From positions 1 to 43,388 of IMG/VR virus record IMGVR_UViG_3300045303_000112: 43,388 nt of DNA; one strand, 5' to 3'. Made by a program: the position numbers and the translations under genes. The stretch comes from a virus. Position 1 is the first letter of the stretch; every line of letters begins with the position of its first letter. This document shows, in pieces, positions 2,562-22,569 of this stretch. The notes under the pieces were generated by a model. It was not told where the DNA came from. It saw only the letters and a program-made list of their open reading frames with translations, and did no database searches.

Positions 2562-4100
2562 ATGGCACCTCCCAGTTTGATTGGCGCACGCTTGGCGCAG
2601 CCATCGGCGATTTCGGGCGGACAGGCGCGGCCAACTGCTGCTGCTCCAGCAGCAACGCTCGAAAACGTGCTCGCTCAGAACATCTACGGCATCGGCTATT
2701 CCCCTGGATACGCCTACGATGGCGAGGGCACCGTAACGGGATATGACCCATCGAAGAACACGCCCACGAACGATCCGCGGATCGCGCAGCTTGCGGCCAT
2801 GATTCGTTCAGCAGCGGGGCCGAACTATATCCCCGATGCCGCGACGCTCGCCAAGATCAACACTCTCACCACGCAGCAGTACCAGAGCAGCGGCGGGAAA
2901 GCGTCAGCGGGGAATACGCCTGCGACGGTGTTCCGGCTGATTAGCTCGACCGACCCGCAGTTGCAGCAGGCATACAAAGGCTTCGTTGCGACCCCGCAGG
3001 GCGCGCAGTTGGCGCAGCAGGGCCAGCAGGGACTAGACTACAAAGCACCATCTGGCAGCGGTAACGTGTTCGGGCCTGGCCTTGGAGGTATTTTGGGAGG
3101 GCTTGCAGCGGGTGCAGCGTTCCTGCCGGCGGCGGCGGGCGCGTTTGGTGCTGGTGCGCTCGGCGCGGGCGAGACAGCGGGACTTGGCAGCGGAATCACA
3201 GACGAAATGCTGCTCACCGGACAAGCGGCGGGCGCAGGCGGTACAGCGGCGGGCGAAGTTTCGAGCGGATTTTCAGGCATGGGTGCGGGGGCATTCGGTG
3301 CTGGCGTTCCTGCTGCTGTCGGGGCTGCCGCAGGTGGAGCAGCCGGCGGGGCGGCAGGTGGCGCTGCCGCAGGCGAGGTAGCGGGCGGAGCGGCGGGCGG
3401 TACAGCCACAGGCGCCCCGACAACCACCGAAGGGCTTGCCGCACCGGCCGCCGCACCAGCACCCACGCCGGTTACGCCGACGACACCGCCAGCGGGCAGC
3501 TTCGACACCGGCGGCTTTCAGAGCGTGTTCGATCAGGTCGCGGGGAATTCAACCAGCGCAGCCGCGCCAGCAGCAGGCGGGACCGGAACCACTCTTGCCA
3601 CCGAGACGCCAGCCGTCGCGCAGCCATCGCTCGCCGAGGGCACGGCGCAGACCGGGCTGAGCGGCACCGCGCCCACGCCGCAGTCCTTCCTCAATCCTGA
3701 ATTGGCCGATCCGACCGCCGGGATTGGCGATACCTCGGCGTTGGGGACCGGCACGGCGTCTTCGGGCGGTGGGCTCATCGACCAAGCGATGAAGTTCGCC
3801 GATCTTCACCCTGGGGCCGCAACGGCGCTCGGAACAGTGGCGGGAGGGGCCATTGGCGGTCTGGGCAAGGGCGCTGCCGAAGTCATCGCTGCCAACAAAA
3901 AAGCCGAGTCAGACAAGGCGCTGATCGATGCGAAACGGCAGGCCGATCTGGACCTTTTGAGCGGAAGAACTGCGCTCGCGCAGGCCAATTCTTTTAAGGG
4001 CAGCATCCCGTTTTCAGCCGCGCCGGGGCAGGTGTTGCGCCGGCCGGATGGCACACCCGTTTTTTCCGCGAACGGCTTGATCGGAAGTCGCGTTAGTTAA
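2562..4100 (+). CDS. Gly/Ala-rich virion-associated protein
   Basis: 512 residues. AAGGA (2551-2555) lies six bases before the ATG. Residues 1-165 are ordered-looking; residues about 170-300 are extreme Gly/Ala repeats (blocks such as AAGGAAGGAAGGAA), residues 300-400 are Pro/Thr/Ala linker, and a second Gly-rich hydrophobic patch (ATALGTVAGGAIGGLGKG) near residue 425 is followed by a charged helix. Glycine-rich hydrophobic stretches of this kind are common in phage ejection proteins that interact with the envelope. No enzymatic motif is seen. The gene ends 19 bases before the convergent end of the leftward DUF5710-like gene. Confidence 0.6.
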   Translation: MAPPSLIGARLAQPSAISGGQARPTAAAPAATLENVLAQNIYGIGYSPGYAYDGEGTVTGYDPSKNTPTNDPRIAQLAAMIRSAAGPNYIPDAATLAKINTLTTQQYQSSGGKASAGNTPATVFRLISSTDPQLQQAYKGFVATPQGAQLAQQGQQGLDYKAPSGSGNVFGPGLGGILGGLAAGAAFLPAAAGAFGAGALGAGETAGLGSGITDEMLLTGQAAGAGGTAAGEVSSGFSGMGAGAFGAGVPAAVGAAAGGAAGGAAGGAAAGEVAGGAAGGTATGAPTTTEGLAAPAAAPAPTPVTPTTPPAGSFDTGGFQSVFDQVAGNSTSAAAPAAGGTGTTLATETPAVAQPSLAEGTAQTGLSGTAPTPQSFLNPELADPTAGIGDTSALGTGTASSGGGLIDQAMKFADLHPGAATALGTVAGGAIGGLGKGAAEVIAANKKAESDKALIDAKRQADLDLLSGRTALAQANSFKGSIPFSAAPGQVLRRPDGTPVFSANGLIGSRVS

Positions 4101-5356: not shown

Positions 5357-6505
5357 ATGGCCGGAATTCTCGGAATGGCGTTGGCCAGATCAGTTGAAGG
5401 TCTCGGACAGGCCGGCGAAGCAGTCGGTCTCCAAGCCCAGAAGCAACTGGGCGAACTCGACCTCGACAAAGAGCGGCAAGCGGCTATCGCGGCCCGCGAG
5501 GAAACGCTTGCCCGCCTCCAATCGAGCTTGAAGATGGAAACCGCGCAGCCGCTCGCAGACATCGAGACCGCGGGCAAGATCAAAGTCGCGCAGAACACGC
5601 CGCGTCTTGTGCCAGAAGGGGTGACGGAGCGCATGCCTGGGGTGTCCGACTTCACCGCGCCGAAGACTGCGGTGCCCGAAGCGCCTGGGCAGGTTGAATT
5701 GCGAGCCGCGCAGTCGAAGAACTACGAAGCGCTCACCAAGCGCTGGAACGCCGAAGCCGACGCCATCTCGGAAGGCTTGAAGTACGGCAAAGCCCAAAAG
5801 CCGGTGATGCCCAAGATTTCGGTGGAGAAAGATGCCGACGGGAATCCGTACATGGTCGATCAGAATACCGGGGCCATCGGCGTCATCCGGCCAGGTGCGC
5901 CGGCCAAGCCGGAAGTCGGGCATTGGTTCTCGGCGAACGAACCGGCGACGCCAGCCGGCGCCCCGAGGGTGGATTGGAACCTGAACGGGCAACCGCTTGC
6001 GAACGGTCTCTCTGACGCTTACCCTGAGATCGCGGGCAAACTTCGAGGCGCGGTCCCTGCTGCTGGCTCTGCTGGCGCCCCGCCTGCTGCCGCGATCGAG
6101 CGCTTGAAGGCGAACGCGGACAACCCGAAAGCCAGGACCGACTTTGATGCGGTATTCGGCGCCGGCAAGGCCGATGCGATTCTCAACGCGCCTACAGCAA
6201 CGCCCGCAGCGCCCAAGACGCCAGCGAGGCCCGCTGCGCTTGTCACCCCGCGCATGGCGCAGCCCGCGCAGCCTGATATTCCCGCCGGGACCGATGTCGA
6301 TGCCGCGCGCAATGCGGTCTCTGCGGCAAGAGCGAAGCTCCAGACCTACGGCACCTTGAAGGCGAAGCAAGACCCGGCTGGTTTCGAGCAGGCGAAAAGA
6401 GACCTGGAGGACGCGCAAGGCAAGGCCGATCAGGCGCTTCAAGCCTACCAGCAGGCGCTCAGCGCGCCGACTGGCGCAGTGATTGGGTCAATCCGTAATC
6501 GGTGA
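5357..6505 (+). CDS. Probable ejection/internal virion protein with coiled coil
   Basis: 382 residues. The N-terminus (MAGILGMALARSVEGLGQAG) is an amphipathic Gly/Ala-rich helix; residues about 25-75 are a charged coiled coil; the middle is Pro/Ala-rich linker with a short ordered patch (EKDADGNPYMVDQNTGAIGV, about residues 155-174); and residues 310-365 form a second coiled coil rich in Ala, Gln and Lys. Its stop overlaps the GTG start of the giant gene (GTGA at 6502-6505), implying coupled translation. A virion role is inferred from composition and position. Confidence 0.6.
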   Translation: MAGILGMALARSVEGLGQAGEAVGLQAQKQLGELDLDKERQAAIAAREETLARLQSSLKMETAQPLADIETAGKIKVAQNTPRLVPEGVTERMPGVSDFTAPKTAVPEAPGQVELRAAQSKNYEALTKRWNAEADAISEGLKYGKAQKPVMPKISVEKDADGNPYMVDQNTGAIGVIRPGAPAKPEVGHWFSANEPATPAGAPRVDWNLNGQPLANGLSDAYPEIAGKLRGAVPAAGSAGAPPAAAIERLKANADNPKARTDFDAVFGAGKADAILNAPTATPAAPKTPARPAALVTPRMAQPAQPDIPAGTDVDAARNAVSAARAKLQTYGTLKAKQDPAGFEQAKRDLEDAQGKADQALQAYQQALSAPTGAVIGSIRNR

Positions 6506-9500
6506 ATCTGATGGGAATGTTCGACGACTTCGAGCACAACCCGGCCGATCCGGGCTCGTATCGGACTTACGAAGACCTGCGCGCCCGCGCGGCGCTCACT
6601 CCAGAGGAAAGCGCGGCGGATCAGGCCGACTCGGTATCGCCAGAATCGAAGGCAGCGCTTGAGCACGAGATTGCCAGGCGCGACCTGACGCCGAAGCAGC
6701 GCGGCATTCTCGAAGGCGAGTACGCGAGCAAGTTCGGCGGCGGTACGGCCCTGAACTGGATCGACGACCAGGCGCAGAACATGTTCGCCGAATTCGCGCC
6801 CAAGGCGAGCGCGCCGCCGCAGAACATGTTTGCCGAGTTTGCCACGGCGCCGGCGGCGAAACCCCAGGCGCAGGAGCCGCGCAGCCTGCTCAAGGAAGTG
6901 CCGCTTCAACTCTACGCCGGCGCAACCATCGATCTGCCAAAGCAGGTAGGGCAGGCGATGCAATGGATGAGCGAGCCGGGACATCCGGCCTACGAAAAGG
7001 GCCAGGCGCTCCAGGATTGGGCCGCGCAGCGCGAGAAAGAAAGCCCAGACCTTGCCCCACAAACCGAAGGCCGCGGGCTGATTGGCCGCGCGTTGTCTGC
7101 GGGTGCCCGCGCCATTGCGCCCTCGGTGGTTCCGATGGTTGCTGGCGCCGCACTCGCGCCGCTCGGGGTGGCTGCGGCCGGCACCGCGCTCGCTGCTGGC
7201 ACCTTCGGCCTATTCGGCGCATCCCAGGCGCAGGAGAGCTACGACAAGCTCATCAAATCGGGCGTTCCAGAGCCAGACGCGAGGCGAGCGGGCTGGATCA
7301 ACCTGATGATCGAAGGCGGCGGGGAGACGCTCGGAGACGTGGCCGGGCTGAAACTATTCGGCCTCTTCGGCAAGGCGCTTGGCAAGAGCGCGGTCGATAG
7401 CGCCATCAAGGGCGTGACCGATACCGCCGTATGGAAGCCCTTCATCACGCAGTTGCCGAAGACGACGGCGATTGAAGCCTCGACCGAATTCGGCCAGAAC
7501 TACGGCGAGGCGTGGGTCGAAAACAGGTTTGGCGCCGCCAACCCGGAACAGAACGACCCATTCGCGCAAGGCGTGCAGGGTGCCGAAGCTGCGCTCGGCA
7601 TGACGCTGCTGCTCGGCCCCTTCGGCCTCGCCGGTTTCGCATCCAGAGCGAAGCGTAACGGCAAAATCGCCGATGCGTTGACAGACCCCGATACGCCGGA
7701 AGCCAATCGCATCGCCGCGGCCAAGATCGTGTTTGACGAGATCAAGGCGGTAGACCCCAAAGCGGCGGCGGCATGGTCTGAAAACAGCACCGTGGCGATC
7801 CTTGGCAAAGCGCCGATCCTGCTCGATGAAACCACGGCGCAGAGCGATCAGAACCTCGTGCGCGGGATGCCAGTCGAACCCGCCTCTGCGGACGCCATCA
7901 CCAAGGACGGGCTCGCCAAAATCTCCGCAGCCCCCGACCTCGACACCGCTATTCAAGCCGCAGCCGATGCGACCAAAGGCCCGATTGTTCCAGCGGTGAT
8001 ACCAATCGTGCCGCCAAAGCGCGAAACGCCGCCGGGTATGGACACTTTTGGCGGGTTGATGGAGGACAAGACGCCGACGAACGCAGAAGACGAGGCGCTG
8101 AAACGCCTACAGATCGACCAGGCGCACGAAGAACGCGCGGCCCCGACCGCGATGGGCTCGGCCATGCAAGCGGCGCTCACGAAGCAGGACGAGCGCGACG
8201 TCACCGGCATGACGGACAAGGAATTGGACCTCGCGGGCAGGCTCACGCGCAGCGATGCGCGGCGGGCAGAGATTGCGGGCGAGCAGCAGAGACGACAGGA
8301 GGTGCAAGGTGCCAAGGCAGTACGAGGCGATACGCAACAAGCTGGCCAAGGGAGCGAAGGTGGACAGCCCGGCCTACAATTTGGCGCAGTCGAGGGCGGC
8401 GGCAATCTACAACAGCCAGCACAGGGACCGGCCAATGTCGGCGGCGCACCCGGAGGGGGCACCCAGACGCCCCGGCCTGATAATGTCGCGCTTAATCGGG
8501 CGCTGAATGCCGTCATACGGCGCCAGCCGGTTGCCAAGGACATCACGCCCTACCTGCTCAATGCGGGCCTTGCAACCACGCGGGACGACGGCACGCTCAA
8601 ACTGACGAACGCCGGATTTCGCGCACGCCAACAGACTTCGCGGGCAATCGCGCCCGCACCGGCGCCCGGATTGGCGCAACAACCAGGAGGCCAGAATGGG
8701 CAAAGGCAAGAAGCCCCCGAAACCGAAGTATTAGCGCCAGCACCACCACCAGCAGCCGGGGCTGCGGCTCCGGTTGCTGCGCCAACGCTTGCCGACATTC
8801 ATGCCTTGGCAGAATCCAAAGGCATCGACGTGGGCACGCCGGAATTCCGCGCGTGGACCCGAAAATCGACGGGAAAGGAGCACCTTGACGCTCTCAACCC
8901 GACTAAGCGCAAGATTCTGTTCGAGAGGTTGAAGGCGCGGCCAGCGGCGGCTGGAACCTCACCTGAATGGGTAGCCTTCCCGCCAGAATCCGGCACCCTC
9001 GGCGTGCCGCGTGCTGACATGCCCCAAATTGCGGCCGAACATCGTGGTGCCTTGGTGAATTTTCTCGAAGCGCGCGGCGTCACGCATCACCAGGAGGAAG
9101 TGCGCGCCGATTCGTTGAAACCGACACAAGCCGAATACTCGCCAGCCAAGGTCGAAAAGGCGCAGAAGTTCGAGGGCGGAGACCGCTCGATTCTTGTCAG
9201 CAGCGACAATCATATCGTTGACGGCCATCACCAGGCCATTGCGGCCGCTCGAGCGGGCGAGCCGATCAACATCATCCGGCTGAATGCGCCGATCGCGCAG
9301 TTGCTGCCGCTCGTGCGAGAGTTTCCGTCAGCGACTACAGCGCCCGCTGGCACCGCTGCGCCCGCTGCCAAAGCCGCTGTTGCGCCAGCACCCCAGGCCA
9401 AGGCAGAGCCTTCTACCGAAACAGCCGTAACTGCCAAGCAGCAGCTATTTGTCAGATGGGGCGGTCAGACGCATCCAGTCGAATCTTTGCAGGACGCGAG

Positions 9501-12500
9501 CGAGAAATGGGAAGCCTTCCGCGACAAGGCAGGCGCTGGGGTATCTGAGGTTGGTAACGGTGTGAGCATTGTTGACCAGACCGGTAAAGAAGTCGCCAGG
9601 GTGTCGTACAACGGGCGCGTGTGGCCAGCAGGCGAGCACAAGCGCGGGAATGTGCCGCTCTATGTGCCGGAGGGCGAGAAAGGACCAGCCAAGGTTGAAA
9701 CGCCGCCGACTGTTCCACGGGAAACCGCTGCGCCGGCCGAAACGAAAGCCGCCGCGTCGAAACCTGAAACAAAGCCAGCCGCCGAGCCCAAGGCCAGCGA
9801 CATCCTGAGCATGAGCAGCGCCGAGTTTGATGCCCTGATTGACGAGGTGGTGGCTGAGCGCCGGGCAGCGGCAGCCGAACCCGCGCCGACCAAAGCCGCC
9901 ATCATCCCGACGCGTGCCGGAATCGTTGTGCAGCCGCTCGACGAGAAGGGAGAGCCTGCCGGGCCAGCGCACCAGGCTGGAGAGAAGCCGGTAGAAGCAG
10001 CGCCAGCCTCGCGCGAGCAGCTCATTGCCGACCTTAAGGCGAAGGGTTTCGATGGCACGATAGACCGCCTCAATCGCGGCACGATTACCGAAGCCCAAGC
10101 GCGCGACGAATTGACCGGGAAGCCCAAACCAGGCGAATTCAAGCGCGGCCAGCGCGTCGAGTACGTCAGCGGCAAGTACGAAGGCCGACACGGCGAGATC
10201 GCCGAAGCGCACGCCTTCCGCTGGTCAACCGGCTTCGGGCAAGTCAGTGAAAGCCAGATGTCCTACGAGGTCAAGACGGACAATGGCGGAACGGTACACG
10301 CAAGTCAGGCCGAAATCCGCGCTGAAACAGCCAAACCGGAGCGCGTCGTCGCCGATGTGAAAGTCGGGGACCGCTGGACGGACCCAGAGCACGCCTACAG
10401 CATGATTGGCTACTACGAGCGCGGCGCGGCCGGCGACCGGGCGGCATCATCGAGGGCAAAGAAACCCGATATGAAGGCGAAGTGGCTGCGCAACGCGGAA
10501 GTGAAGGACGCGGACGCCGCCAGATACCGCGATGCGTACAACGAGTGGGCGACTCGCTTTCCTGACGAGGCCGCAAAGATAGCGCCGCCAGTGGCAGCAG
10601 CCCAGACCGCGCCGACAAGCGTTCCGTCCGCTGCCGGCGCTCCTTCCATGACGCTGACCCAGACCAAGCACACAAAGTCCGGGGCCGATCTTTGGGTGGT
10701 GAAACTGGGCGAGCGCGTGGACGCCGGCACGTTCTCAGCCTTGAAGGCGAAAGCCACGCGCAACCACGGCATCTGGTCGAACTTCACCAAGGGATTCAAC
10801 TTCACGACGCCGGCGGGGGCCGAGGCGTTCATGGGCAAGCCTGCGACGCCTGCGGCAGGACCAAGCATCGAACGCGGAGACGTGGCGCGCGACTTTCTCG
10901 CCGGCGGGCGCGGCGCGGTGCTGCCGGAGCAGCCGACTCCGCAGGCGCCACCATTGGCCGGCATGACGCCGCTTGGGGCACAGCCCTATGCCGGAACGAA
11001 CTGGCAGCCTGTCGGGCGCAATATGAGCCCAGGCGCGGCAATGAGCATCCTGACGACCGGGACGCGGGTGCGCAATCACAGCGGCGCAGAGGGGACCATT
11101 CAGGAATGGGAGAAAGGTGACGGCGATAGCGTCCGCGTGCTATTTGATGGCAACAAGAACGTTTTTTTGTACGATGGTCGCGAACTTGATTTCGATCCTC
11201 GTGGCGCGGCAAGCCCAGTCAAAACCGCCGCCCAGATCGCAAGCGAAGCCGCTGCGGGCCGCAAGGTGCTCGAAGACCTGTTCGGACGTAAGGATTCAGC
11301 CCAGGTAGCCGCAACTCCCGCAGTCCCCGTTGCCGCCTCGCTCGACGTCGTTCTGACGGACGAGGACAAAGCCGATGCCGCGCAGGCCCTGGGCGACAAA
11401 GCATGGTCAGATGGGACAGCCAAGAAGTTCCTCCAAGGCTACGCCGAATGGCTCCAGCAGGGCGCGAAAGAACTCGCTACCGCCTTAGGCAAGCTCTACG
11501 CCAAGGTGCTCGCAGCCGCCCGCGCGGGCTTGCTCTCCATCGCCGTCGCCTTCAACTTCAATGCCGCGCAGCATGTTCCATCCTTGTCGATGCCGGTCAC
11601 GCAGCAGACTATCACGCAGGCGGTATCTTGGGGCGAGGATAAGTATGCGGTGCGCGAGCAACGCACGCCTGCCGGGCGCTTTGCAAGCCGCGCCAAGGGC
11701 GACTTCGACGATGAGATATGGGCGAAGGTCAGGCCGGCGCTGGATGCCAATTTCGCTGAATTTACGGCAACGGGCGGCAATCCGAAAGATTTTGTGCGCC
11801 AAGTGTTCGCCACCTATAATGAAAGCATCATCCCCTACCTGAGAAGGTGGCACAAGGAATCCGCGCATGCTGCAACTGGACCCGGTAAGCCTGAAAGCCC
11901 TCGGCCGTCGCCACTGGAAGGAGTTTTGCCCGAAGAAATACCACGACTTGAAGGAGGCGGGGCAACTGGAACAGGCCCTAGACTCGGCGGTGGCGCTCAC
12001 GCTCCAGGCGATACAGGAGGACCGGGAGGCGGGCTACACCCCGTACCAGGCGTGGGAGAAGGAGCGGGAACTGTACCTCCTGCTCCCGGAGGAGGAAGAC
12101 CCGCAGGAGGAACAACCGGACAATCCGGCCTACGACAGCCTGGCGGAAATGAACCGGGCACTCGACCAGGAGAGCTAGTCCCGCAGGCAGAGAATTTCGT
12201 CATCACCGACGAACTGGAGCTTGGCAAGGGCACCTCGATCCAGAAGTACGAGGACAACGTCGCGGCGATCAGGCTCCTAAAGCAGATCGAAGCCGAGAAC
12301 CGGGACGCGACGCCAGAAGAACAAAAAACGCTCGCCCGCTACGTCGGATGGGGCGGCATCAAGGAAGCCTTTCCGAATCCGAACAACCCCGCAAGAAAAG
12401 GATGGGAGCGGCGCGTCGCCGAGATCAAGGACTTGCTCACCGAGGATGAGCATGACGCCGCCGCGCGCAGCATCCAGGATGCGCACTACACGAGCAAGCC

Positions 12501-15500
12501 CGTGGTGGACATCATGTGGGCGATCGCGGGGCGCTTGGGGTTCGACGGCGGCAAGGTGCTGGAAAACTCCATGGGCGTCGGGAACTTCTTCGGCCTCATG
12601 CCGGCGCAGTTGCGCACAGGTGCGACCCTGACCGGGATCGAACTGGACAATATCACCGCGCGCATTGCGAAGCAGCTCTATCCCAAGGCCAACATCATCG
12701 GCCCCATCGGCTTCGAGGATGTGAACCTCGCCGACAACACCTTCAATCTCAACGTGGGCAATCCGCCCTTCGGCAAGGGCACGCCTTACGATGCCAATTC
12801 CAAGCACCTGAACGGCTTCACCACGCACAATTTCTTCTTCGCCAAGGCGATCGACAAGCTCGCGCCCGGCGGGCTGCATATCCAAGTGGTGTCGCGCTAC
12901 CTGATGGACGCGCAAACGAATCCAGCGCGCGAGTACATCGCGCACCGCGCGGAATTGATTGGCGCGATGCGCCTGCCGTGGACCGCCTTTTACAGCACGG
13001 CGGGCACCGAGGTAGTGACCGACATTATCGTGTTACAAAAACTCGAAGAACGCGATTGGGGCCGCGCAGACGACTCGTGGACCAAGACGACGATGATTCC
13101 CGACCCGCTTGGCGGGGAGCCCATGCGCGTGAATCAGTATTACGCCGATCACCCGGAAATGATCGTGGGCCAGATGAACCGCTCGGGCGAGATGGTGATG
13201 GAGAACGACATCACCGTGCAGCCGGAGGACGGGATTCCGCTAGAACTTGGCCTGATGCAGCGGGCGATGAACTTCCCCGACGACATCTACCGCCGCGGCA
13301 AGTCCGAAGCCGACGTGAAGGCTGAATCCGATGCGGCCGTATCGGCGCCGGCGGAGACCATCGAGCAGCACGCCATCGGTTCCTACTTCGAGGAAGGCGG
13401 CAGGCTCTTGCAGCGCGTGATGACGCCCGATGGTTCGCTGCGCGCCGAGGAAATCACCGCAGCCTCGATCTGGAAGGACGTAAAGCCCGGCGTAACGACG
13501 AAGAAGGGCGAACTGAAAACCCCGAGCACCTGGGGCGAGACGCGCATTGCGCGCGTGCGCGGCATGGTACACATCCACGAAGCGGAAATGACCCTGCTCA
13601 ATGCCGAGAGGAACGACGCCCCGGATGCGGAGCTAAAAGCGCTTCGCGCCGTGCTGAATAAGGTCTACGACAAGTACGTCGCCGAGCATGGGTTCCTGAA
13701 TCAGCGCGAGAACGAACTGGCCTTCCGCGCCGATAGCGTTGGCTCGCCAAGACTCCTTGCCCTGGAGCACAACTTCGACGCAGGCGTATCCAAGAGCGCG
13801 GCAAAGCGCCTCGGCATCAAGGAAAAGGCGCCTACAGCCGAGAAGATGCCGATTTTCACGACGCGGCAAGTCGCCCCCTACAAGGCCCCGGACAAGGCTG
13901 CCAACGCGATCGACGGTCTTGCCATATCCATCATGGAAAAAGGCAGCGTCTCCGTCCCCTACATCGCCAAGCTCACCGGCATGGGCGAGCATGACATCGT
14001 GCGCGATCTGACCTCCGGGGAGAAGCCGGTTGCATACTTCAACCCCGCGTCGAAAACCTACGAGACGGCACCGATGTACCTCTCGGGCAACGTCAAGCGC
14101 AAATACCAGGAAGCGCGCGAGGCGGGGTTGATGGAGCAGGCCGAAGCCTTGAAAGCGGCGTTTCCGCCAGATGCCAAGGCGGGGGACATCGTGGCGCGCA
14201 TGGGCGCGGGCTGGATTCACCGCGATGTCTACGCCAAGTTCGTGCGCCACCTGCTAGGGGAAGAAGCGGTTGCCGAAATAATCTTCCTGCCCGCGACGGG
14301 CGGCTTTGCGGTCTCGACCCACGGCGGCGATGAGGTGATGGTCGGAACCAAGTGGGGCTCGCCGCGCCGGGACGCGCACGATCTCATTTCGCGCATCCTC
14401 AACAACAAGGACATGGCCGTCTACGACACCGATTCGGACGGCAAGCGGGAGATGAACAAGGCGGCTACGGAAGCCGCGCAGGAAAAGGCCGAGCAAATCC
14501 GCGAGGAATTCATGGATTGGGTCTTCAAGGACTCCGACCAGCGCGAGGCGCTCGTCTCCTTCTACAACGAGAACATCAACACCCACGTCGGGCGCGAATG
14601 GGACGGCGACTATCTCACGCTGCCGGGTAAGGTGCCAGATGCAATCATCACCCTGAACCGGCACCAATTGAATGCGGTAGCGCGCTGGATCAGCACCGGC
14701 AAGATACTGCTCGATCATGTCGTCGGATCAGGAAAGACCTATACCATCATCGCCGCAACGATGGAGATGCGGCGCATCGGCCTCCTGAAAAAGCCAATGA
14801 TCGTCGTTCCAAACCACCTCGTTGAGCAGTGGGCACAGGCGTTCTACCAACTCTACCCAGGCGCCAACATCCTCGCCATGCGTAAGGCCGACTTCACCAA
14901 ACAGAACCGCAACAAGATGCTCGCCCGCGTGGCGACCGGGAACTGGGATGCGGTCATCTTCTCGCACTCGTCCTTCGGATTCATTGCAAACGAGCGGGGC
15001 ATTCTCGTAGCGGCGATCAGGGATCAGATTGCCGAACTGCAAGCGGCGATCGATGCCGCGCGCAAGACCGAGGGCGCGAAATCGCGCACGGCTGCGCAAT
15101 ACCAGAAGTCGAAGGAGAAGATGCAGCAGCGCATGAAGGCGCTCTTGGACAAGCCGAAGGACGAAACGCTCACGTTTCAGCAGTTGGGAGTGGATCAAAT
15201 TACCGTCGATGAATCGCAGGAATTCAAAAACCTGTTTTTCACCACGCAGCGCCGCGGTGTCGGCGGCTTTGGCAACCCGACCGGCTCCAAGCGCGCATTC
15301 GACATGTACATCAAAACGCAATGGCTGCAAAAAACGCAGAACGGGCGCGGCGTGGCCTTTGCGACCGGAACCCCGATCTCCAACTCGCTCACCGAACTTT
15401 TCACGCTCCAGCGCTACCTGGGCCTGGATGAATTGAAAGCACGCGGCATGGTGTCCCTCGACGCCTGGCTCGCCGCCTTTGGCATCACCGAGACCGACTA

Positions 15501-18500
15501 CGAATCGAATGTGACCGGAACAAAGTACAAGCGGAAGGAGCGCTTGCGCCGGATCACGAACGCGCCCGAGATCATGCAGCTCTACAAGCAGTTCACCGAT
15601 TCGGTCACGCAGGCCGATGTGGAGCGCAATTACCGTGAGGATCACGAGGGCAAGGCATTTCCGATTCCGAAGGTGAAGGGCGGCAAGGCGCGTCAGAACG
15701 TCACGGCGAAGGCGACGGCGGCGCAAAACGCTTTTTCCGAGCAACTCAACAACCGGATGGACCATCTGCCATCCGACCCGCGCATCGACAATGCGTTGAA
15801 GGTGCTCACGGACGGGCGCAAGGCTTCGCTCGACATGCGCCTGATCGACCCGAGTCAGTCGGATGAACCTGGGTCCAAGATTCACGTCGCGGCGGACAAT
15901 ATCTACCGCATCTATGCCGAAAACACGCACCGGCTTGGCACGCAACTCGTGTTTTGCGACCTGTCCACGCCCAATAAGCACGGCAAGAAGGATGCCGCTA
16001 AGTTCTTGAAGGAGGCGCGCGAGATACTGGACGACAAGGGCGCCGCGCCCTTTGGCGACCTGCGCCAGCAATGGCGCGAACTGCGCTCTCGCATCCAGGA
16101 GATGTACGACACGATGGATGAGGCCGAGGGCGACCAGCGCTCGATCGACCACATCGAGAAGTTCCTTGCCCAACACGACGACATCGACGCCGCCGTCACC
16201 AATGCGGACCTGAATTTCTCGATCTACGACGACATGCGCACGAAGTTGATCGAGCGCGGCATCGCGCCGCACGAAATCGCCTTCATCCACGACTACAACG
16301 GCGATGCGCAGAAACAGGACTTGTTCGATGCGGTCAACGCTGGCCGGATTCGCGTGCTCCTGGGATCGACGGCGAAGATGGGCGCGGGGACCAATGTGCA
16401 GCGCAGGATGGTCGGGCTGCACCATCTGGACGTGCCATGGCGCCCATCGGACATCTTGCAGCGCGAGGGGCGCATCGTGCGGCAGGGGAACTACTTCCGG
16501 TACAACCCGATCACGCGGGAGGATAACCCCGGCTTCGAGGTCGAAATCCTCGCCTACGCCACCGAGCCATCCTCTGACGTGTTCATGTGGCAGGCGCAGG
16601 AACAAAAGCTCGTGGCGATCGAATCCATCTCCCGCTACCACGGCGAGCGCGAGATCGAGGACGTATCGGGCGAGTCCATGAGCGCATCCGAAATGAAGGC
16701 GCTCGCCTCGGGCAACCCGCTGATCCTGGAGGATGTGAAGCTCACCGAGGAAATCCGCAAGCTCGAAGCCTCGCGCGCACGCCACCGATCGACCGAGCAG
16801 GACTTGGAATCGGAGGTTGCGCGCTACCAGCGCTACATCGACCAGCTTCCGGCCGTCATTGCGCGCCAGCAAGACTTGTCGAACCGCATCGACGCCTACA
16901 AGGCCAACCCATTCGAGGGCAAGCGGCCCACGGCGCAGATCGACGGCAAAGAGGTCAACGCCGAGCAGGCTTGGGAGCATATTGCCGAAGTCAGAAACGC
17001 CGCCCTGATGGCCGCAGCCGAGGCCAATGCGCCAGCCAGAACACAGCAAAAAATAATTGAAGAAAAAACACAAGCCGTCAAGCTCAACTCGCCTGAATTC
17101 AAGGCGCTGGAGGCCGAACATAAGGCGATCGAGAAGGCGCTTATCAAGCCAAAATTCGAGGTCACGTTCGCAGGCAAGGTCTACCGCGGCGTGGAGAGCG
17201 CACAAAAGGCCGTCACGGACAAGCTCGGGGACCATGATGCTATCCGCTTCGTTCTGGATGGCAAGGACTACATCCGCCGCGCCGACATCGAGGCGCACAT
17301 CGATGATGTGGTGCGCGACTGGGCTTCCAATATGGAAGGCAGTGCGACGCTCGGCACAGTCGGCGGCATTCCGATTGAACTTGCCTGGATCAACGATCGC
17401 CTCGGCAACGGCATCAAGGTCACGATCGGCGGGGAAGTGGAATACGCCGAGCACGGCACGAAAAAGAGTTTCATCGGCCAGCCCTACGAGGTCAAGGCAG
17501 ATGGCGATATGGTGCTGCGTTTGATCCAAAAAATCCTGCGCGAGACCAAATCCAATCTCACCGGAAACAAGGAGAGCTACCAGAAGGCCCTGAAAGGCAT
17601 CGCCCCGTTGAAGGCGCAGATGGGCAAGCCATGGGGCAAGGATGTGGACCTGGCGAAGAAGAAGGCGCGCGCTGCCGACGTCCGCAGGGAATTGGCGGGA
17701 CAGGCGCCGCCCGTGCTGGATGCGACAAAGCCCGTAGGCCACACGATTCTAGGCACGCCGATCTACATCGGCGACATCGTTCGGATGAAGACCGAGACCA
17801 TCGACGGGACGAAAGTCGGCGGGGAAACCTTCACCGTGACCGGGGCGACGTGGGAAGGTAGCAAGAGGAACGAGCGCTACATCCAGGGCCAGGATACCCG
17901 CAACACGACGACATCCTACAGTTACCACGTCGAGAACGTGGCCGAAGTCATCCCAGGGGATCGGCCGGGAGTCACGCAGGAATCGGCTGATGCCGCTGGA
18001 ATGGGGCCGTCGCGCCGGGCCGCTGCCCCTGCGCCAATGTCGGATGCCAATCTTCTGAAATTCCGTGCTATCAGGATGGGCGAGGGTTTCCAACTCGTGC
18101 CCTCGTTCAGCGACGTTCAACTGGCGGCTGCGCCGGGCTTTGATTTCTTCGCGCACCGCAGGGACGACAAAAACAGGACGTGGAACATATCCGAGCGCAG
18201 CACTGGACTTCACTTTGGCGCAGTAGGGGACACCAAGAAGGAGGCCATTGCAGAGGCCGAGCGGATCATTGGCGAAGTCGGCGTAGAGAAACTGCAATCG
18301 GCGATCGACGGGGCGCCGAAGATCACGCCGGAGATTCTGCGCAGGCTGGTGCTTGGTGCTGGCGAGAGCGGCACTGCGGCGCAAATCCAGCGCAGCGGCC
18401 TCCTGAACCAACCGAACGAATCCGCCCTCCTTGATCCGTCAAAGGCAGAAGCGGCCAAGGTGCAGGCCGGCATCGAAGGCAAAACCGTCCTCGAAGCGGC

Positions 18501-21500
18501 GCGCTTCATCGCGGCCACCGGGACAGGTTTCCAGAAGATCATCGCAGGCAAAATAGTGCAGGCCATCAACAGGCTCCAGACAGCCGGCGTCGTTTTCGAT
18601 TTGAAGCTCGCGCACGTAGGCGACACCGTTCCGCGCGCTTTGCTTCCCGCCCGCGGCATCACCGCCTGGAACTTCGCCCCGAACAACAACACCGTCACCG
18701 TTTGGATCAACGCAAGCGACGTGACCGGCAAGGTCGGGACATCTTACGAGACCGTGCTGCACGAGTTGGTTCATGCGGCGACGGTTGCGATCACGCACCT
18801 CGGGAACCGAAAAGCGGCGATCGGCTACAAGTCGGCGCAGGACGTGCGCGACCTCTACGCCGTGACAAACCACGTCATTGCGCACTTCAACGCGAGGGTG
18901 GCGGCGGCGAAAGCTGGAAAGACCACGCTTACCGACTTCGAGGACAGGCTGCATCGGGGCGCATCCAACGCCTTTACGAACCCGGATGAAACGCTCGCTT
19001 GGGCGCTATCGAACCCGCAGGCGCAGGCGTACCTGGAGACCGTCCCCTATCCTGAGCACAAGTCCGCATGGACCGCGTTCGTGGACGCTATCCGCAGGCT
19101 CCTGGGCATTCCGCGTCATGCAGCCACGGCTTTCTCCGAAGTCCTGCGCATTTCCGAGAACCTGATGGGCGACAACGCGAATGAGTTGCTTGGGATCGCA
19201 TCTGACCAAGGGAGCACCGAGGCTCAGACGCGGGCCGGGAGCGGGGTGTTGCAGCAGGCCAAATTCATTGGAAAATTCCCGAACATAGATAGTAACCCGC
19301 GTACCGTTTCTGAGATGAAGGCAAGGGCTGCCAAACACGCAGCAGAACGCGCGACAGCGGGGCAGGATCAGACCGAGGCCGCACGCGAGGCGGCGGGGAT
19401 AGCCAAGCCGGCAAGCGAGCGCGGCGAAAACTACGATCAGGCGTGGAAAGAGTACAGCGCGCTTCCTGGAGTAGATGCTGACTATTTAGGGAGGCCGAAG
19501 ATATCCGATTTGGTTGCGGGAGCGCAATTCGAGTTGGACATCGCAGGCGAAGGCGAAATAAAGCATACGCCGAAGCAGTCAGCGCGCATTCGCGCATTCA
19601 TTGAAAAATGGACCGGCGCGGAAGAATCGCAGCCCGCCAGCTCGCAGGAGCAGGGCGGGACGCTCGCCCACCGCTCCACCGCCTCCGAGCGCGTCTTCGA
19701 GACCGTGCAGAAAGCCCCCGTAGTTGGCAACTGGCTCTCCGCGCAGTTCAATTCTCCCGCCTCCTTCGGCATCCTGAAACCGTTCAACACGCAACTGCAC
19801 AAAGCGCTGACGCTCGCAAAGCAGGGGAAGCCCGAATTCAAGCGCGTATTCGATAAGCTCCAGGATTTTCTGAGCGACACAACGGCGCTCGCCGTTCATG
19901 CCGAGCAGCAGGCACCGACCATGTTCCGCGAACTGACTGGGCTTGGCGCGAAGTCGGTCAAGAACTACCTGGGTGCCGCGAAGACCGAGGACATCAACGC
20001 CATCGGCCCATGGCTCAACTACGGCACGCTCTACGGTGGGCCAAGCCCGATGGACGGCATCGTCTGGACCGACAAGGAACTGGCCGGCGACTTCGCGGGT
20101 TCCAAGCGCGTCAAGCCGCGCGTTCCGCCGCTCACCCTTGAACAGATCAAGCTCTACCACGAGGCGCGTGCCGCCATCAACACCTCGGTTGAGACCGGCG
20201 CCAAGTCGGCGATCTTCAAGAACGTGGAGAAATTCGGCATCACGTTCGACAAGTTCGATAGCCTCGACCGCGTGGCTGCCGAGGTGAAGGACCAACTCAC
20301 TGAGTTACGCAATGACGCGCACATCCGCTACCAGCAGCAGGAAGACATCACCAACACCGCGCACGAGGAATCGCAAACCGCCGGCGACGCGGCCAAAGCG
20401 CGGCCAAAGGACCGGCAGTTACGGGTTGCCGCCGAGAACGCCCGCGCCAACTACGAGAACGAGCAAAAGGCGCTGGACGATATTCAGAAGGACATCGATA
20501 CGTTTGACAGGCTGATCGGGACCAAGGATGAACCCGGCACGATCGACCAGATTGGTGACGTGGCCCACGGCCTGATCGAACACGGATACGCACCCCTTAA
20601 GCGATTCGGGAATCGCACGGTGACGGCCTACGACAGCACCGGCAAGGCGCGCTTCTTCGGCGCGTTCGACGGCACGCCGCTCGTGCCAGGCTCGGCCAAC
20701 GCCGAAATGCAGCGCGTGGCCGTGCAGATCAAGGCGCTGCACCCTGAATGGGACGTGGTGACGGGCGTGCGCGACGAAGAGGCGTGGAAGATGTACCAGG
20801 GCTTGAGTTTGGATGCCCTTGAGAACTTCCTCGATCTCCTGCCCGCCGAGACGCAGGCCGAGATCAAGCGCGATCCGATTGTTCAGGAATACCTCAAAAA
20901 CTCGGTCAACAACCGCAGCGTGTTGAAGGAACTGATCCACAGGAAGGGAACACCTGGCTTCTCGACCGACGTGGCGCGCGTGGTGGCTTCCTTCATGACG
21001 AGCCATGCCCGCGCGGCGAGTTCGCTCTACCACATCGGCGCGGCAAAGAACATGGTGCAGGACATCCCGCAGGAGCAGGGCGATGTGCGCGACGAGGCGG
21101 CAAAATTGGTCGATTACGTGACCAAACCGGGCGAGGAAGCGGCAAAACTGCGCGGATTCCTGTTTTTTCACTTCCTTGGGGCTTCGGTTGCCGCTGGCGC
21201 TGTCAATCTGACCCAAACGCCGATGATGACGGTCGGTTATCTGAACAAGTTCGCCTCGTTGAAGGACGTGACGGCGCGCATCCTGGCGGCATCGGCAAAG
21301 GCCGTCATGGACCCCATCGGCATCAAAGGGGCGCTCGGCCAGGCGCTCGTGCGCGCCGAGCGCGAGGGCATCACGGCGCCGCAGCAGATTCACCACTTGA
21401 TCGGCATCTCGGCGAATAACCCATTTTCCAGCAACCGGGCTTTCCGCGGCTTCATGAACGTGTGGGGCAGCATATTCGGGGCAACGGAGGTATTCAACCG

Positions 21501-22569
21501 CCGCGTGGCCTTCATGGCTGGCTACGAGACTGGCCAGGCGAACGGCATGGGGGATGCCGCCGCTTACGCTTTCGCCAAGGATGTGGTGGCGCAGACGCAG
21601 GGGCTCTACAACCGCGGCAATACCGCCAATATCGGACGCGGCGCGATCGGGAAGACCGTCTTCACGTTCAAGCAATTCACCGTGATGTACTTGGAGCTGC
21701 TCCAGCGCTTACCGCCAAAGCAGCAACTCCTGATGCTCGGGATTCTGCTTGCAGCGGCCGGCGGCGAGGGCCTGCCGTTCGCCGAGGACATCGAGGATTT
21801 GGTAGACACGCTTGGCCAGTGGCTTGGATTCTCCACCAACACCGGAAAATGGACCGGCAAGGTGATCCGTGACACGCTCGGGGCCGAATTCGAGCGCCCG
21901 CTGTTGAAGGGCTTGGGCGGGATGCTGCCGATCGACCTGCATTCCAGGCTCGGATTCGGCAATATCGTGCCCGGCACGGCGTTCTTGAAGCCTTCCGAGA
22001 TTGACAAGACGCGCGACGTTGCCGAAGCCGTGGGGCCGCTCGGGGGCGTGCTCAAGTCATTTTCCGACAGCCTGCAACTGCTTGCCCGCGGCAAATGGGA
22101 CCAAGCAGCCGTGAATGCCGCGCCTAAAGCCCTCCGCGACGCCTATAATGGCCTCCACATGGCCGCAACCGGCGAATCCCAGGACATCCAGGGCCGACTC
22201 GCCTTGAAGGACGTGACCGCCGGGGAAGCTCTCGGCAAGGCAATCGGCTTTAACCCGCAGCGCGCAGCGATCGAGAGCGAAACGAAGCGCGAACTGCAAC
22301 TCGATAAGAACTTGCGCATCGTCCGAATGGACGAGATGGCCAGCGACTGGGCCGATGGCATCTTGCGCCAGGATAGGGACAAGCAGGCCGAAGCGCGGCA
22401 ACGTCTGCGCACTTGGAATTCCGAGAACCCGGAACTGCGCATCCAAATGGCCGATATGTTGCGCTCAGTGCAGGAGCGGGTGAAGGCGGCGCGCATGACT
22501 GGCGCGGAACGCTTTATCAGGTCAACGCCCAAGGCATTGAAGCCGGAAGCGCGATCTGCGCTTCAATAG
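6502..22569 (+). CDS. Giant polyvalent protein: methyltransferase, helicase, zincin, PLxRFG
   Basis: 5355 codons, GTG start coupled to the preceding stop (ATGs at 6511 and 6517 are alternatives). In order: an N-terminal segment with the motif QNMFAEF twice (residues 92-98, 107-113); a hydrophobic Gly/Ala patch (about 192-250); a ParB-like domain with DGHHQ (907-911); small beta domains in Pro/Ala linkers to about 1690; an N6-adenine methyltransferase with a motif-I-like ENSMGVGN (2021-2028) and NPPF (2087-2090); a superfamily 2 helicase with GSGKT (2742-2746), DESQ (2903-2906), ATGTP (2954-2958) and QREGRIVRQ (3320-3328); coiled coil to about 3700; a zincin HELVH (4087-4091); PLKRFG (4698-4703); and an ejection-protein-like C-terminus. 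The methyltransferase-helicase pair resembles phage DarB-type antirestriction proteins. Likely virion-borne and injected. Active residues are seen; roles are inference. Confidence 0.9.
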   Translation: MNLMGMFDDFEHNPADPGSYRTYEDLRARAALTPEESAADQADSVSPESKAALEHEIARRDLTPKQRGILEGEYASKFGGGTALNWIDDQAQNMFAEFAPKASAPPQNMFAEFATAPAAKPQAQEPRSLLKEVPLQLYAGATIDLPKQVGQAMQWMSEPGHPAYEKGQALQDWAAQREKESPDLAPQTEGRGLIGRALSAGARAIAPSVVPMVAGAALAPLGVAAAGTALAAGTFGLFGASQAQESYDKLIKSGVPEPDARRAGWINLMIEGGGETLGDVAGLKLFGLFGKALGKSAVDSAIKGVTDTAVWKPFITQLPKTTAIEASTEFGQNYGEAWVENRFGAANPEQNDPFAQGVQGAEAALGMTLLLGPFGLAGFASRAKRNGKIADALTDPDTPEANRIAAAKIVFDEIKAVDPKAAAAWSENSTVAILGKAPILLDETTAQSDQNLVRGMPVEPASADAITKDGLAKISAAPDLDTAIQAAADATKGPIVPAVIPIVPPKRETPPGMDTFGGLMEDKTPTNAEDEALKRLQIDQAHEERAAPTAMGSAMQAALTKQDERDVTGMTDKELDLAGRLTRSDARRAEIAGEQQRRQEVQGAKAVRGDTQQAGQGSEGGQPGLQFGAVEGGGNLQQPAQGPANVGGAPGGGTQTPRPDNVALNRALNAVIRRQPVAKDITPYLLNAGLATTRDDGTLKLTNAGFRARQQTSRAIAPAPAPGLAQQPGGQNGQRQEAPETEVLAPAPPPAAGAAAPVAAPTLADIHALAESKGIDVGTPEFRAWTRKSTGKEHLDALNPTKRKILFERLKARPAAAGTSPEWVAFPPESGTLGVPRADMPQIAAEHRGALVNFLEARGVTHHQEEVRADSLKPTQAEYSPAKVEKAQKFEGGDRSILVSSDNHIVDGHHQAIAAARAGEPINIIRLNAPIAQLLPLVREFPSATTAPAGTAAPAAKAAVAPAPQAKAEPSTETAVTAKQQLFVRWGGQTHPVESLQDASEKWEAFRDKAGAGVSEVGNGVSIVDQTGKEVARVSYNGRVWPAGEHKRGNVPLYVPEGEKGPAKVETPPTVPRETAAPAETKAAASKPETKPAAEPKASDILSMSSAEFDALIDEVVAERRAAAAEPAPTKAAIIPTRAGIVVQPLDEKGEPAGPAHQAGEKPVEAAPASREQLIADLKAKGFDGTIDRLNRGTITEAQARDELTGKPKPGEFKRGQRVEYVSGKYEGRHGEIAEAHAFRWSTGFGQVSESQMSYEVKTDNGGTVHASQAEIRAETAKPERVVADVKVGDRWTDPEHAYSMIGYYERGAAGDRAASSRAKKPDMKAKWLRNAEVKDADAARYRDAYNEWATRFPDEAAKIAPPVAAAQTAPTSVPSAAGAPSMTLTQTKHTKSGADLWVVKLGERVDAGTFSALKAKATRNHGIWSNFTKGFNFTTPAGAEAFMGKPATPAAGPSIERGDVARDFLAGGRGAVLPEQPTPQAPPLAGMTPLGAQPYAGTNWQPVGRNMSPGAAMSILTTGTRVRNHSGAEGTIQEWEKGDGDSVRVLFDGNKNVFLYDGRELDFDPRGAASPVKTAAQIASEAAAGRKVLEDLFGRKDSAQVAATPAVPVAASLDVVLTDEDKADAAQALGDKAWSDGTAKKFLQGYAEWLQQGAKELATALGKLYAKVLAAARAGLLSIAVAFNFNAAQHVPSLSMPVTQQTITQAVSWGEDKYAVREQRTPAGRFASRAKGDFDDEIWAKVRPALDANFAEFTATGGNPKDFVRQVFATYNESIIPYLRRWHKESAHAATGPGKPESPRPSPLEGVLPEEIPRLEGGGATGTGPRLGGGAHAPGDTGGPGGGLHPVPGVGEGAGTVPPAPGGGRPAGGTTGQSGLRQPGGNEPGTRPGELVPQAENFVITDELELGKGTSIQKYEDNVAAIRLLKQIEAENRDATPEEQKTLARYVGWGGIKEAFPNPNNPARKGWERRVAEIKDLLTEDEHDAAARSIQDAHYTSKPVVDIMWAIAGRLGFDGGKVLENSMGVGNFFGLMPAQLRTGATLTGIELDNITARIAKQLYPKANIIGPIGFEDVNLADNTFNLNVGNPPFGKGTPYDANSKHLNGFTTHNFFFAKAIDKLAPGGLHIQVVSRYLMDAQTNPAREYIAHRAELIGAMRLPWTAFYSTAGTEVVTDIIVLQKLEERDWGRADDSWTKTTMIPDPLGGEPMRVNQYYADHPEMIVGQMNRSGEMVMENDITVQPEDGIPLELGLMQRAMNFPDDIYRRGKSEADVKAESDAAVSAPAETIEQHAIGSYFEEGGRLLQRVMTPDGSLRAEEITAASIWKDVKPGVTTKKGELKTPSTWGETRIARVRGMVHIHEAEMTLLNAERNDAPDAELKALRAVLNKVYDKYVAEHGFLNQRENELAFRADSVGSPRLLALEHNFDAGVSKSAAKRLGIKEKAPTAEKMPIFTTRQVAPYKAPDKAANAIDGLAISIMEKGSVSVPYIAKLTGMGEHDIVRDLTSGEKPVAYFNPASKTYETAPMYLSGNVKRKYQEAREAGLMEQAEALKAAFPPDAKAGDIVARMGAGWIHRDVYAKFVRHLLGEEAVAEIIFLPATGGFAVSTHGGDEVMVGTKWGSPRRDAHDLISRILNNKDMAVYDTDSDGKREMNKAATEAAQEKAEQIREEFMDWVFKDSDQREALVSFYNENINTHVGREWDGDYLTLPGKVPDAIITLNRHQLNAVARWISTGKILLDHVVGSGKTYTIIAATMEMRRIGLLKKPMIVVPNHLVEQWAQAFYQLYPGANILAMRKADFTKQNRNKMLARVATGNWDAVIFSHSSFGFIANERGILVAAIRDQIAELQAAIDAARKTEGAKSRTAAQYQKSKEKMQQRMKALLDKPKDETLTFQQLGVDQITVDESQEFKNLFFTTQRRGVGGFGNPTGSKRAFDMYIKTQWLQKTQNGRGVAFATGTPISNSLTELFTLQRYLGLDELKARGMVSLDAWLAAFGITETDYESNVTGTKYKRKERLRRITNAPEIMQLYKQFTDSVTQADVERNYREDHEGKAFPIPKVKGGKARQNVTAKATAAQNAFSEQLNNRMDHLPSDPRIDNALKVLTDGRKASLDMRLIDPSQSDEPGSKIHVAADNIYRIYAENTHRLGTQLVFCDLSTPNKHGKKDAAKFLKEAREILDDKGAAPFGDLRQQWRELRSRIQEMYDTMDEAEGDQRSIDHIEKFLAQHDDIDAAVTNADLNFSIYDDMRTKLIERGIAPHEIAFIHDYNGDAQKQDLFDAVNAGRIRVLLGSTAKMGAGTNVQRRMVGLHHLDVPWRPSDILQREGRIVRQGNYFRYNPITREDNPGFEVEILAYATEPSSDVFMWQAQEQKLVAIESISRYHGEREIEDVSGESMSASEMKALASGNPLILEDVKLTEEIRKLEASRARHRSTEQDLESEVARYQRYIDQLPAVIARQQDLSNRIDAYKANPFEGKRPTAQIDGKEVNAEQAWEHIAEVRNAALMAAAEANAPARTQQKIIEEKTQAVKLNSPEFKALEAEHKAIEKALIKPKFEVTFAGKVYRGVESAQKAVTDKLGDHDAIRFVLDGKDYIRRADIEAHIDDVVRDWASNMEGSATLGTVGGIPIELAWINDRLGNGIKVTIGGEVEYAEHGTKKSFIGQPYEVKADGDMVLRLIQKILRETKSNLTGNKESYQKALKGIAPLKAQMGKPWGKDVDLAKKKARAADVRRELAGQAPPVLDATKPVGHTILGTPIYIGDIVRMKTETIDGTKVGGETFTVTGATWEGSKRNERYIQGQDTRNTTTSYSYHVENVAEVIPGDRPGVTQESADAAGMGPSRRAAAPAPMSDANLLKFRAIRMGEGFQLVPSFSDVQLAAAPGFDFFAHRRDDKNRTWNISERSTGLHFGAVGDTKKEAIAEAERIIGEVGVEKLQSAIDGAPKITPEILRRLVLGAGESGTAAQIQRSGLLNQPNESALLDPSKAEAAKVQAGIEGKTVLEAARFIAATGTGFQKIIAGKIVQAINRLQTAGVVFDLKLAHVGDTVPRALLPARGITAWNFAPNNNTVTVWINASDVTGKVGTSYETVLHELVHAATVAITHLGNRKAAIGYKSAQDVRDLYAVTNHVIAHFNARVAAAKAGKTTLTDFEDRLHRGASNAFTNPDETLAWALSNPQAQAYLETVPYPEHKSAWTAFVDAIRRLLGIPRHAATAFSEVLRISENLMGDNANELLGIASDQGSTEAQTRAGSGVLQQAKFIGKFPNIDSNPRTVSEMKARAAKHAAERATAGQDQTEAAREAAGIAKPASERGENYDQAWKEYSALPGVDADYLGRPKISDLVAGAQFELDIAGEGEIKHTPKQSARIRAFIEKWTGAEESQPASSQEQGGTLAHRSTASERVFETVQKAPVVGNWLSAQFNSPASFGILKPFNTQLHKALTLAKQGKPEFKRVFDKLQDFLSDTTALAVHAEQQAPTMFRELTGLGAKSVKNYLGAAKTEDINAIGPWLNYGTLYGGPSPMDGIVWTDKELAGDFAGSKRVKPRVPPLTLEQIKLYHEARAAINTSVETGAKSAIFKNVEKFGITFDKFDSLDRVAAEVKDQLTELRNDAHIRYQQQEDITNTAHEESQTAGDAAKARPKDRQLRVAAENARANYENEQKALDDIQKDIDTFDRLIGTKDEPGTIDQIGDVAHGLIEHGYAPLKRFGNRTVTAYDSTGKARFFGAFDGTPLVPGSANAEMQRVAVQIKALHPEWDVVTGVRDEEAWKMYQGLSLDALENFLDLLPAETQAEIKRDPIVQEYLKNSVNNRSVLKELIHRKGTPGFSTDVARVVASFMTSHARAASSLYHIGAAKNMVQDIPQEQGDVRDEAAKLVDYVTKPGEEAAKLRGFLFFHFLGASVAAGAVNLTQTPMMTVGYLNKFASLKDVTARILAASAKAVMDPIGIKGALGQALVRAEREGITAPQQIHHLIGISANNPFSSNRAFRGFMNVWGSIFGATEVFNRRVAFMAGYETGQANGMGDAAAYAFAKDVVAQTQGLYNRGNTANIGRGAIGKTVFTFKQFTVMYLELLQRLPPKQQLLMLGILLAAAGGEGLPFAEDIEDLVDTLGQWLGFSTNTGKWTGKVIRDTLGAEFERPLLKGLGGMLPIDLHSRLGFGNIVPGTAFLKPSEIDKTRDVAEAVGPLGGVLKSFSDSLQLLARGKWDQAAVNAAPKALRDAYNGLHMAATGESQDIQGRLALKDVTAGEALGKAIGFNPQRAAIESETKRELQLDKNLRIVRMDEMASDWADGILRQDRDKQAEARQRLRTWNSENPELRIQMADMLRSVQERVKAARMTGAERFIRSTPKALKPEARSALQ
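8309..8506 (+). CDS. Small gene nested in +1 frame of the giant gene (65 aa)
   Basis: An exact AGGAGG (8297-8302) lies six bases before GTG at 8309. The 65-residue product begins VPRQYEAIRNKLAKGAKVDS and continues with AAAIYNS, a pattern I recall from small phage proteins (MPRxYEAxRDK...AxxIYN). Third codon positions are mostly G or C, as in real genes of this window. The giant frame over the same bases encodes only Gly/Gln-rich linker, so the +1 frame is the better protein. The last 20 residues look less conserved. Function unknown. Confidence 0.6.
   Translation: MPRQYEAIRNKLAKGAKVDSPAYNLAQSRAAAIYNSQHRDRPMSAAHPEGAPRRPGLIMSRLIGR
8696..8734 (+). CDS. 12-residue nested mini-ORF with perfect ribosome binding site
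   Basis: AGGAGG (8685-8690) lies five bases before ATG at 8696. The frame encodes MGKGKKPPKPKY and stops at TAG, in the same +1 register as the other two nested genes. The basic, proline-rich start resembles the N-termini of small phage proteins; it may be a translated remnant of a longer gene. Support is the binding site and register only. Confidence 0.3.
   Translation: MGKGKKPPKPKY
11867..12178 (+). CDS. Small gene nested in +1 frame before the methyltransferase domain (103 aa)
   Basis: AAGGA lies eight bases before ATG at 11867. The 103-residue product (MLQLDPVSLKALGRRHWKEF...) is acidic and helical, with the segment GYTPYQAWEKERELYLLLPEE, and has strongly G/C-biased third codon positions. 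It resembles a family of small phage proteins with the pattern LDPxSLKxLGRxHWxEF; I recall the family but not its function. The giant frame across the same bases is a Gly/Pro linker (residues about 1789-1893), so these bases appear to have evolved as this gene. It ends just before the methyltransferase part of the giant protein begins. Confidence 0.7.
   Translation: MLQLDPVSLKALGRRHWKEFCPKKYHDLKEAGQLEQALDSAVALTLQAIQEDREAGYTPYQAWEKERELYLLLPEEEDPQEEQPDNPAYDSLAEMNRALDQES

Follow-up and report, generated by a model that had tools for sequence, protein, structure and literature searches.

Genomic Context and Composition

The window, i.e., the whole stretch of DNA analysed here, is a virus record of 43,388 bases. 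It carries a giant gene that encloses, directly 5' of its methyltransferase segment, a small ORF in the +1 frame (Table 1). Comparison of the methyltransferase segment with annotated DarB-like proteins gave 100 phage records with identities of up to 52.6%, and the GWGG motif was visible in the alignment of the LPD36-type segment (alignment A2). DarB-like polyvalent proteins have an LPD36-methylase-SNF2 module (Iyer et al., 2017, PMC5512222), and judged by its methyltransferase segment the giant of the window is a member of this class.

Table 1. Features of the hidden-gene locus in the window
Feature	Position	Strand	Remarks
Giant DarB-like polyvalent gene, host of the hidden gene	6502..22569	+	5355 codons; methyltransferase-segment similarity to annotated DarB-like proteins
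Shine-Dalgarno (SD) sequence AAGGA	11854..11858	+	8 bases 5' of the hidden-gene ATG
Giant-frame reading of the hidden-gene bases	11866..12177	+	Gly/Pro-rich linker, 49% Gly+Pro; poorly conserved, always open
Predicted hidden (overprinted) gene	11867..12178	+	acidic, helical product of 103 aa; in +1 relative to the giant frame; ATG start
LPD36-like (GWGG) and adenine-methyltransferase segment, N-terminal	12190..13098	+	Anchor for relatives

The small frame has a normal coding pattern, the G+C fractions at its first, second and third codon positions being 0.74, 0.34 and 0.83 over 11867-12178. Read in the giant frame, the same bases give 0.84, 0.74 and 0.34. Synonymous resampling of the giant predicts a GC3 of 0.770 ± 0.040 over the hidden gene, as compared with the 0.337 observed, and the minimum reached in 20,000 resamplings was 0.606. 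In addition, the 104-codon segment with the lowest GC3 in the whole 16-kb giant begins exactly at 11866. A preliminary description of this DNA had proposed a 103-codon +1-frame gene directly before the methyltransferase, with its own AAGGA eight bases upstream, G/C-biased third positions and Gly/Pro low complexity in the giant frame across the same bases, and all of these features were recovered.

The length of the hidden ORF is not above chance. Gly/Pro codons seldom make +1 stops, and when the giant was shuffled synonymously 2000 times, a +1 ORF of 103 codons or more arose at this place in 1550 cases, so that significance based on length in the window alone was rejected. The shuffles are what favours a shadow ORF, i.e., a frame left open by chance in the Gly/Pro-rich, GC-rich giant reading, but the drop of giant GC3 to its minimum exactly over the ORF is against it. 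Another ORF of the window, arginine-rich and 269 codons long (12516-13325, + strand), lies in the +2 frame over the methyltransferase, where the shuffle median is 153 codons; it looks like a GC-rich shadow ORF.

Distribution of the Nested Arrangement

Tblastn with the small protein found homologues in seven phages, Atu_ph08 (E = 2e-7), PBC5, POI1126, Itty13, PEp14, Pavtok and Mwe-JY07. The search for phage homologues suggested in the preliminary description thus contradicted a "no homologues" outcome. In Atu_ph08, Itty13, Mwe-JY07, PEp14 and POI1126 the homologue lies unannotated at the equivalent place in the giant's +1 frame. Single-sequence pattern scans with the window protein gave no matches in bacterial-genome or viral contigs, while alignment A1 did match, and profile scans added 52 viral-contig and 14 bacterial-genome loci. 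The window copy has no close relative, its protein being only about 22-44% identical to other members. In Itty13 (L004, 14960-27296) the giant frame of 4112 codons on the + strand is unannotated; three opposite-strand genes are annotated instead, apparently a misannotation. In phage JC1 the homologue lies at about 49,303-49,641 of the record; the giant of this phage, gp69, has been detected in virions by mass spectrometry (PMC9144972).

Because the choice of loci by the small gene itself was to be avoided, a further sample was anchored on the giant's methyltransferase (n = 100, including the window). Of the 94 loci with more than 200 aa upstream, 89 had a +1 ORF of 75 or more codons near the anchor, as compared with 11 of 94 for the +2 frame; in a few of the 89 loci the longest +1 ORF differs from the homologue. 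Profiles, which were built from the hidden proteins themselves, matched in 85 anchored loci (62 of family A/C and 23 of family B), all in frame +1. Seven further loci have a +1 ORF at the equivalent place with weak or no profile support (L078, L079, L081, L082, L087, L092, and L115), and two (L074 and L085) have a canonical TnpV in the giant's +1 frame further upstream. When profile, position and TnpV matches are combined, 94 of the 100 anchored giants, from phages, plasmids and conjugative elements, have a +1 ORF here or further upstream, many of the contigs being related, so that locus counts are not independent events. In the Natronoglycomyces plasmid L092 a gene of 72 aa is annotated (6693-6911) in the corresponding position, 5' of where the SNF2 gene is annotated to start; it is at most a candidate member of the family.

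Six of the 100 anchored giants had no nested copy (L083, L084, L086, L090, L091, and L093). In P1-type DarB (L090 and L091) the giant starts almost at the methyltransferase, so that a nested gene would not fit in front of it; in L083 a TnpV gene disrupted by a stop stands on its own directly 3' of the SNF2 gene. Counted as distinct small proteins, 91 of 95 in family A/C and 23 of 23 in family B are wholly covered by the giant frame, and those that lie inside giants (91/91 and 23/23, respectively) are all covered by it and in +1. The four uncovered proteins of family A/C come from bacterial contigs without a giant frame over the small gene (L067-L070). The one from Corticibacter populi (L067, 9974-10273) is a free-standing family member with a strong SD sequence and no giant frame across it.

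The overlap is common to phages of Proteobacteria and cyanobacteria, plasmids of Campylobacter, Listeria, Enterococcus and Burkholderia, and gut Bacillota elements, and in nearly every nested case checked the hidden protein is absent from the annotation. Conservation between distant phages, and also in low-GC Campylobacter and Bacillota elements, is a further argument against a shadow ORF. In two respects the preliminary description was too narrow. It had proposed to look in related phages for a separate gene immediately before the DarB-type gene, where the gene is almost always nested instead; it had also described the overlap for the window phage alone, and the overlap recurs in phages, plasmids and gut Bacillota elements and appears to be of long standing. 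Its linker between a virion part and a methyltransferase-helicase part stands as a free linker, but the upstream part is not always virion, since in plasmid giants the hidden gene is preceded by either a short extension or a domain of the ArdC type. In a Campylobacter armoricus plasmid (L174, 2862-3887) the giant frame stops after 342 codons, early in the methyltransferase part; the hidden gene (3001-3477) is intact and about 80% identical despite the shortened giant frame.

Initiation Signals

Most family members start with ATG (125/134, 93%). Among 65 family representatives, 91% have an SD sequence of at least 4 nt and 66% one of at least 5 nt, whereas at control positions the figures are 31% and 7%, respectively. 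Most likely, ribosomes would start internally at the small gene's own ATG and SD sequence on the giant's mRNA, yielding a small acidic helical protein. For ribosomes translating the giant, these bases would instead encode an unconstrained Gly/Pro-rich linker ahead of the methyltransferase.

Alternatively, a programmed +1 frameshift could bring ribosomes from the giant frame into the small frame, where they would end, so that a short virion form is made besides the long form. The deposited PBC5 sequence has just this look: its giant is split and the first half reads in frame directly into the hidden gene (L003, 13692-20285). PBC5 is, however, the sole such case and is most simply explained by a frameshift mutation or a sequencing error. 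In PEp14 the small frame is open just two codons 5' of its ATG, which argues against entry by frameshift, and ATG and SD sequence are conserved at the 5' end of the small gene. Altogether, a programmed frameshift is very unlikely.

It has also to be considered that the translation event is regulatory, either as an interdomain pause or as a restart giving the methyltransferase alone, with the small protein itself irrelevant. The position of the small frame in phage giants, in the linker directly before the methyltransferase, would suit such a role. However, giant-frame ATG codons seldom occur close to the small stop (4 of 60, as compared with 179 of 290 control windows), on which ground restart of a methyltransferase-only isoform was rejected. 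In Bacillota giants kilobases separate the nested gene from the methyltransferase downstream of it, making a purely local translational role unlikely, and the selection described below acts on the small frame at the amino acid level. A regulatory event of this kind is accordingly given little credence.

Selection on the Two Frames

Substitutions were compared in 19 pairs of relatives 72-95% identical, the window not among them and two of the pairs repeating near-identical contigs. In all 19, substitutions within the overlap are commoner at giant position 1, which is the small-frame third position, than at giant position 3. The rates at giant codon positions 1, 2 and 3 are 0.213, 0.095 and 0.099 inside the overlap, 0.279, 0.268 and 0.401 in the upstream flank, and 0.084, 0.055 and 0.293 in the downstream flank. 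Campylobacter plasmids have a like pattern (57, 23 and 12 changes, respectively). The codon-position conservation that the preliminary description had proposed as a check is thus found in the small frame and is not confined to the giant one. When the window was aligned with 59 relatives, the median z was 20.9 for the small frame and 3.1 for the giant frame.

Over the overlap all of the representatives (59/59) keep the giant frame open, where resampling of the small gene's synonymous codons would give 5.2. Taken together, the substitution pattern and an openness beyond expectation indicate that selection preserves both readings. The small reading is kept for its sequence and the giant reading for its openness; over the hidden gene the giant frame behaves as an unconstrained, free linker, and both frames look translated.

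A shadow ORF is refuted by the substitutions tracking the small frame, by the nesting of families A/C and B exclusively in +1 and by the GC3 minimum, and its probability is regarded as negligible. The hidden ORF is very probably a real gene that encodes a protein and is overprinted on a giant DarB-like gene in +1, as the preliminary description had held; this confidence applies to the gene and its arrangement, not to its function. As far as can be judged from sequence comparison, the same bases have served for two proteins over a long time, and the arrangement is more general than was first supposed. Distances between small genes and between methyltransferases are correlated (Mantel r 0.87, 0/2000 permutations), from which it follows that the two are co-inherited.

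Structure and Database Matches of the Small Protein

The helical product expected from the preliminary description was obtained with AlphaFold2, which, using 58 aligned sequences, predicted five helices (residues 6-20, 22-30, 34-54, 59-71, and 87-101) at a mean pLDDT of 89.9 and a pTM of 0.69. The window protein has a pI of 4.4 and the family a median of 4.9. Foldseek gave no match at E ≤ 0.001 in the PDB and a single significant one among viral structures, Q8W6J4 (35% identical), which appears to be the PBC5 protein, judging from the PBC5 fusion. The sequence search of solved structures returned just short matches to designed helical repeats, which are not meaningful. Due to the PBC5 fusion the hidden protein stands at the end of PHROG 938, the "endolysin" label of which misleads searches; the match is an artefact and lysis was rejected as a function.

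Searches of Pfam, PHROGs and NCBIfam gave no significant nuclease or HNH match (phrog_3379 was weak, E = 0.2). This bears on the nearest precedent, the ShiLan-type arrangement, in which an out-of-frame HNH gene lies in a phage DNA methylase gene and the host frame reads through it as a loop (PMC11855218). The geometry is alike, an in-frame loop plus a protein in another frame, both hidden in a phage methylase gene, and the small gene could accordingly be thought of as an inserted selfish element, a homing endonuclease out of frame through which the methylase reads. The window gene differs, however, in that it is no endonuclease, has its own SD sequence and is widespread rather than sporadic. 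Nearly every giant has the hidden gene, and its co-divergence with the methyltransferase (r 0.87) is unlike that of a sporadic homing element. An inserted element of the ShiLan type is therefore extremely unlikely.

Relationship to TnpV

Several family members match Pfam TnpV (PF14198) below the cut-off (E = 3e-4 to 0.03), and the nested protein of a Listeria plasmid exceeds the gathering cut-off with 29 vs. 27 bits. The window protein fails the 27-bit cut-off, having no match to TnpV or to any other Pfam family at E ≤ 10, and is thus TnpV-like at most, not TnpV. Alignment of its family with TnpV by hhalign gave E = 0.002 at a probability of 14% over 44 columns, with only four TnpV sequences, and hhalign gave weak links (E = 9e-5, 2e-3, and 4e-2) among families A/C and B, TnpV and the Campylobacter proteins.

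Canonical TnpV (133-142 bits) is nested in the +1 frame of the Bacillota SNF2/methylase giants L074 and L085. In MT836028 and an Enterococcus plasmid, too, the giant frame extends over it, and by coordinates it is in +1 relative to the methyltransferase in nine further gut records (MT836981, MT838062, MT837743, MT837606, MT835923, MT836012, MT836171, MT839241, and MT835532). The sole exception among the gut records compared is MT836741.1 (957-1298 and 3408-4271), where TnpV is in frame 0 relative to the methyltransferase; an assembly frameshift may be the reason. Free-standing TnpV occurs beside recombinases and, in phiNJ3, before tet(O), and Streptococcus TnpV is a separate gene in L187 and L083.

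TnpV of Tn4451 has a postulated role in excision (PMC3158075), and in the TnpV literature it figures as a gene of its own. The hidden protein resembles TnpV of Tn4451-type elements in being a small mobile-element protein (about 110 aa for TnpV), the canonical form of which can also be nested in a giant in +1; it differs in that TnpV is known as a free-standing gene and the window protein lacks a Pfam match.

Age and Possible Function

The small reading is probably older than the giant one, because free-standing relatives exist, its codon composition is normal and the giant reading is unconstrained. The direction put forward in the preliminary description, a giant ORF extended through a former separate gene, is thereby the better supported one, with L187, L083 and L067 as free-standing examples. 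The +1 geometry shared by phages, plasmids and Bacillota elements suggests an ancient overlap, and the giant reading would have been extended through the small gene long ago, before the phage, plasmid and conjugative-element versions diverged. A repeated origin of the same geometry is possible. Embedded Rz/Rz1 spanin genes, described for JC1 (PMC9144972), are similar in that a whole gene with its own start lies within another in a different frame and is conserved in phages. They differ in function, position and host gene, and in the hidden gene the larger reading is an unconstrained linker.

As to function, our best guess, put forward tentatively, is that the small protein would act in trans as a partner of the methylase-helicase giant; made in the same cell from the giant's own message, it would restrain, chaperone or load the giant during DNA transfer. 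The presence of TnpV on elements without a neighbouring giant does not favour such a partnership. The main functional rival, also a real possibility though short of probable, is an independent mobility factor (TnpV is a postulated excisionase-like protein) that merely shares DNA with the giant. TnpV indeed occurs alone, for example beside recombinases and tet(O), and an excision role has been postulated for it in Tn4451 (PMC3158075). On the other hand, the gene has been retained within giants whether these belong to phages, plasmids or conjugative elements, and the nested cases need no integrase-type neighbour. Extending the partner reading, it is conceivable, if somewhat doubtful, that DarB-type methylase-helicase giants of phages, conjugative plasmids and ICEs would be two-protein systems with an obligate TnpV-like partner in the +1 frame of the enzyme gene, for example an inhibitor or loader by which the enzyme is held back in the cell that makes it. 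A partner encoded in this way could hardly be separated from the enzyme by recombination.

The survey of polyvalent proteins (PMC5512222) mentions neither TnpV nor overlapping genes, and what the JC1 and Atu_ph08 papers say on the DarB-like gene is silent on the small one. Outside the Bcep22 paper (PMC3187461), which may contain an earlier notice, a literature check gave no account of the overlap. One of the largest genes of these phages, like its counterparts in Campylobacter, Listeria and Enterococcus plasmids and gut mobile elements, very probably conceals a second conserved protein. Such same-strand overprinting would be unusual in its depth and in crossing phyla. The nesting in giants is also a hint, from context, at what TnpV does.

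In L074 two TnpV genes lie near one giant (5860-6192 and 13322-13645), one nested in +1 and the other free-standing, and a third is found in the same record (L184).
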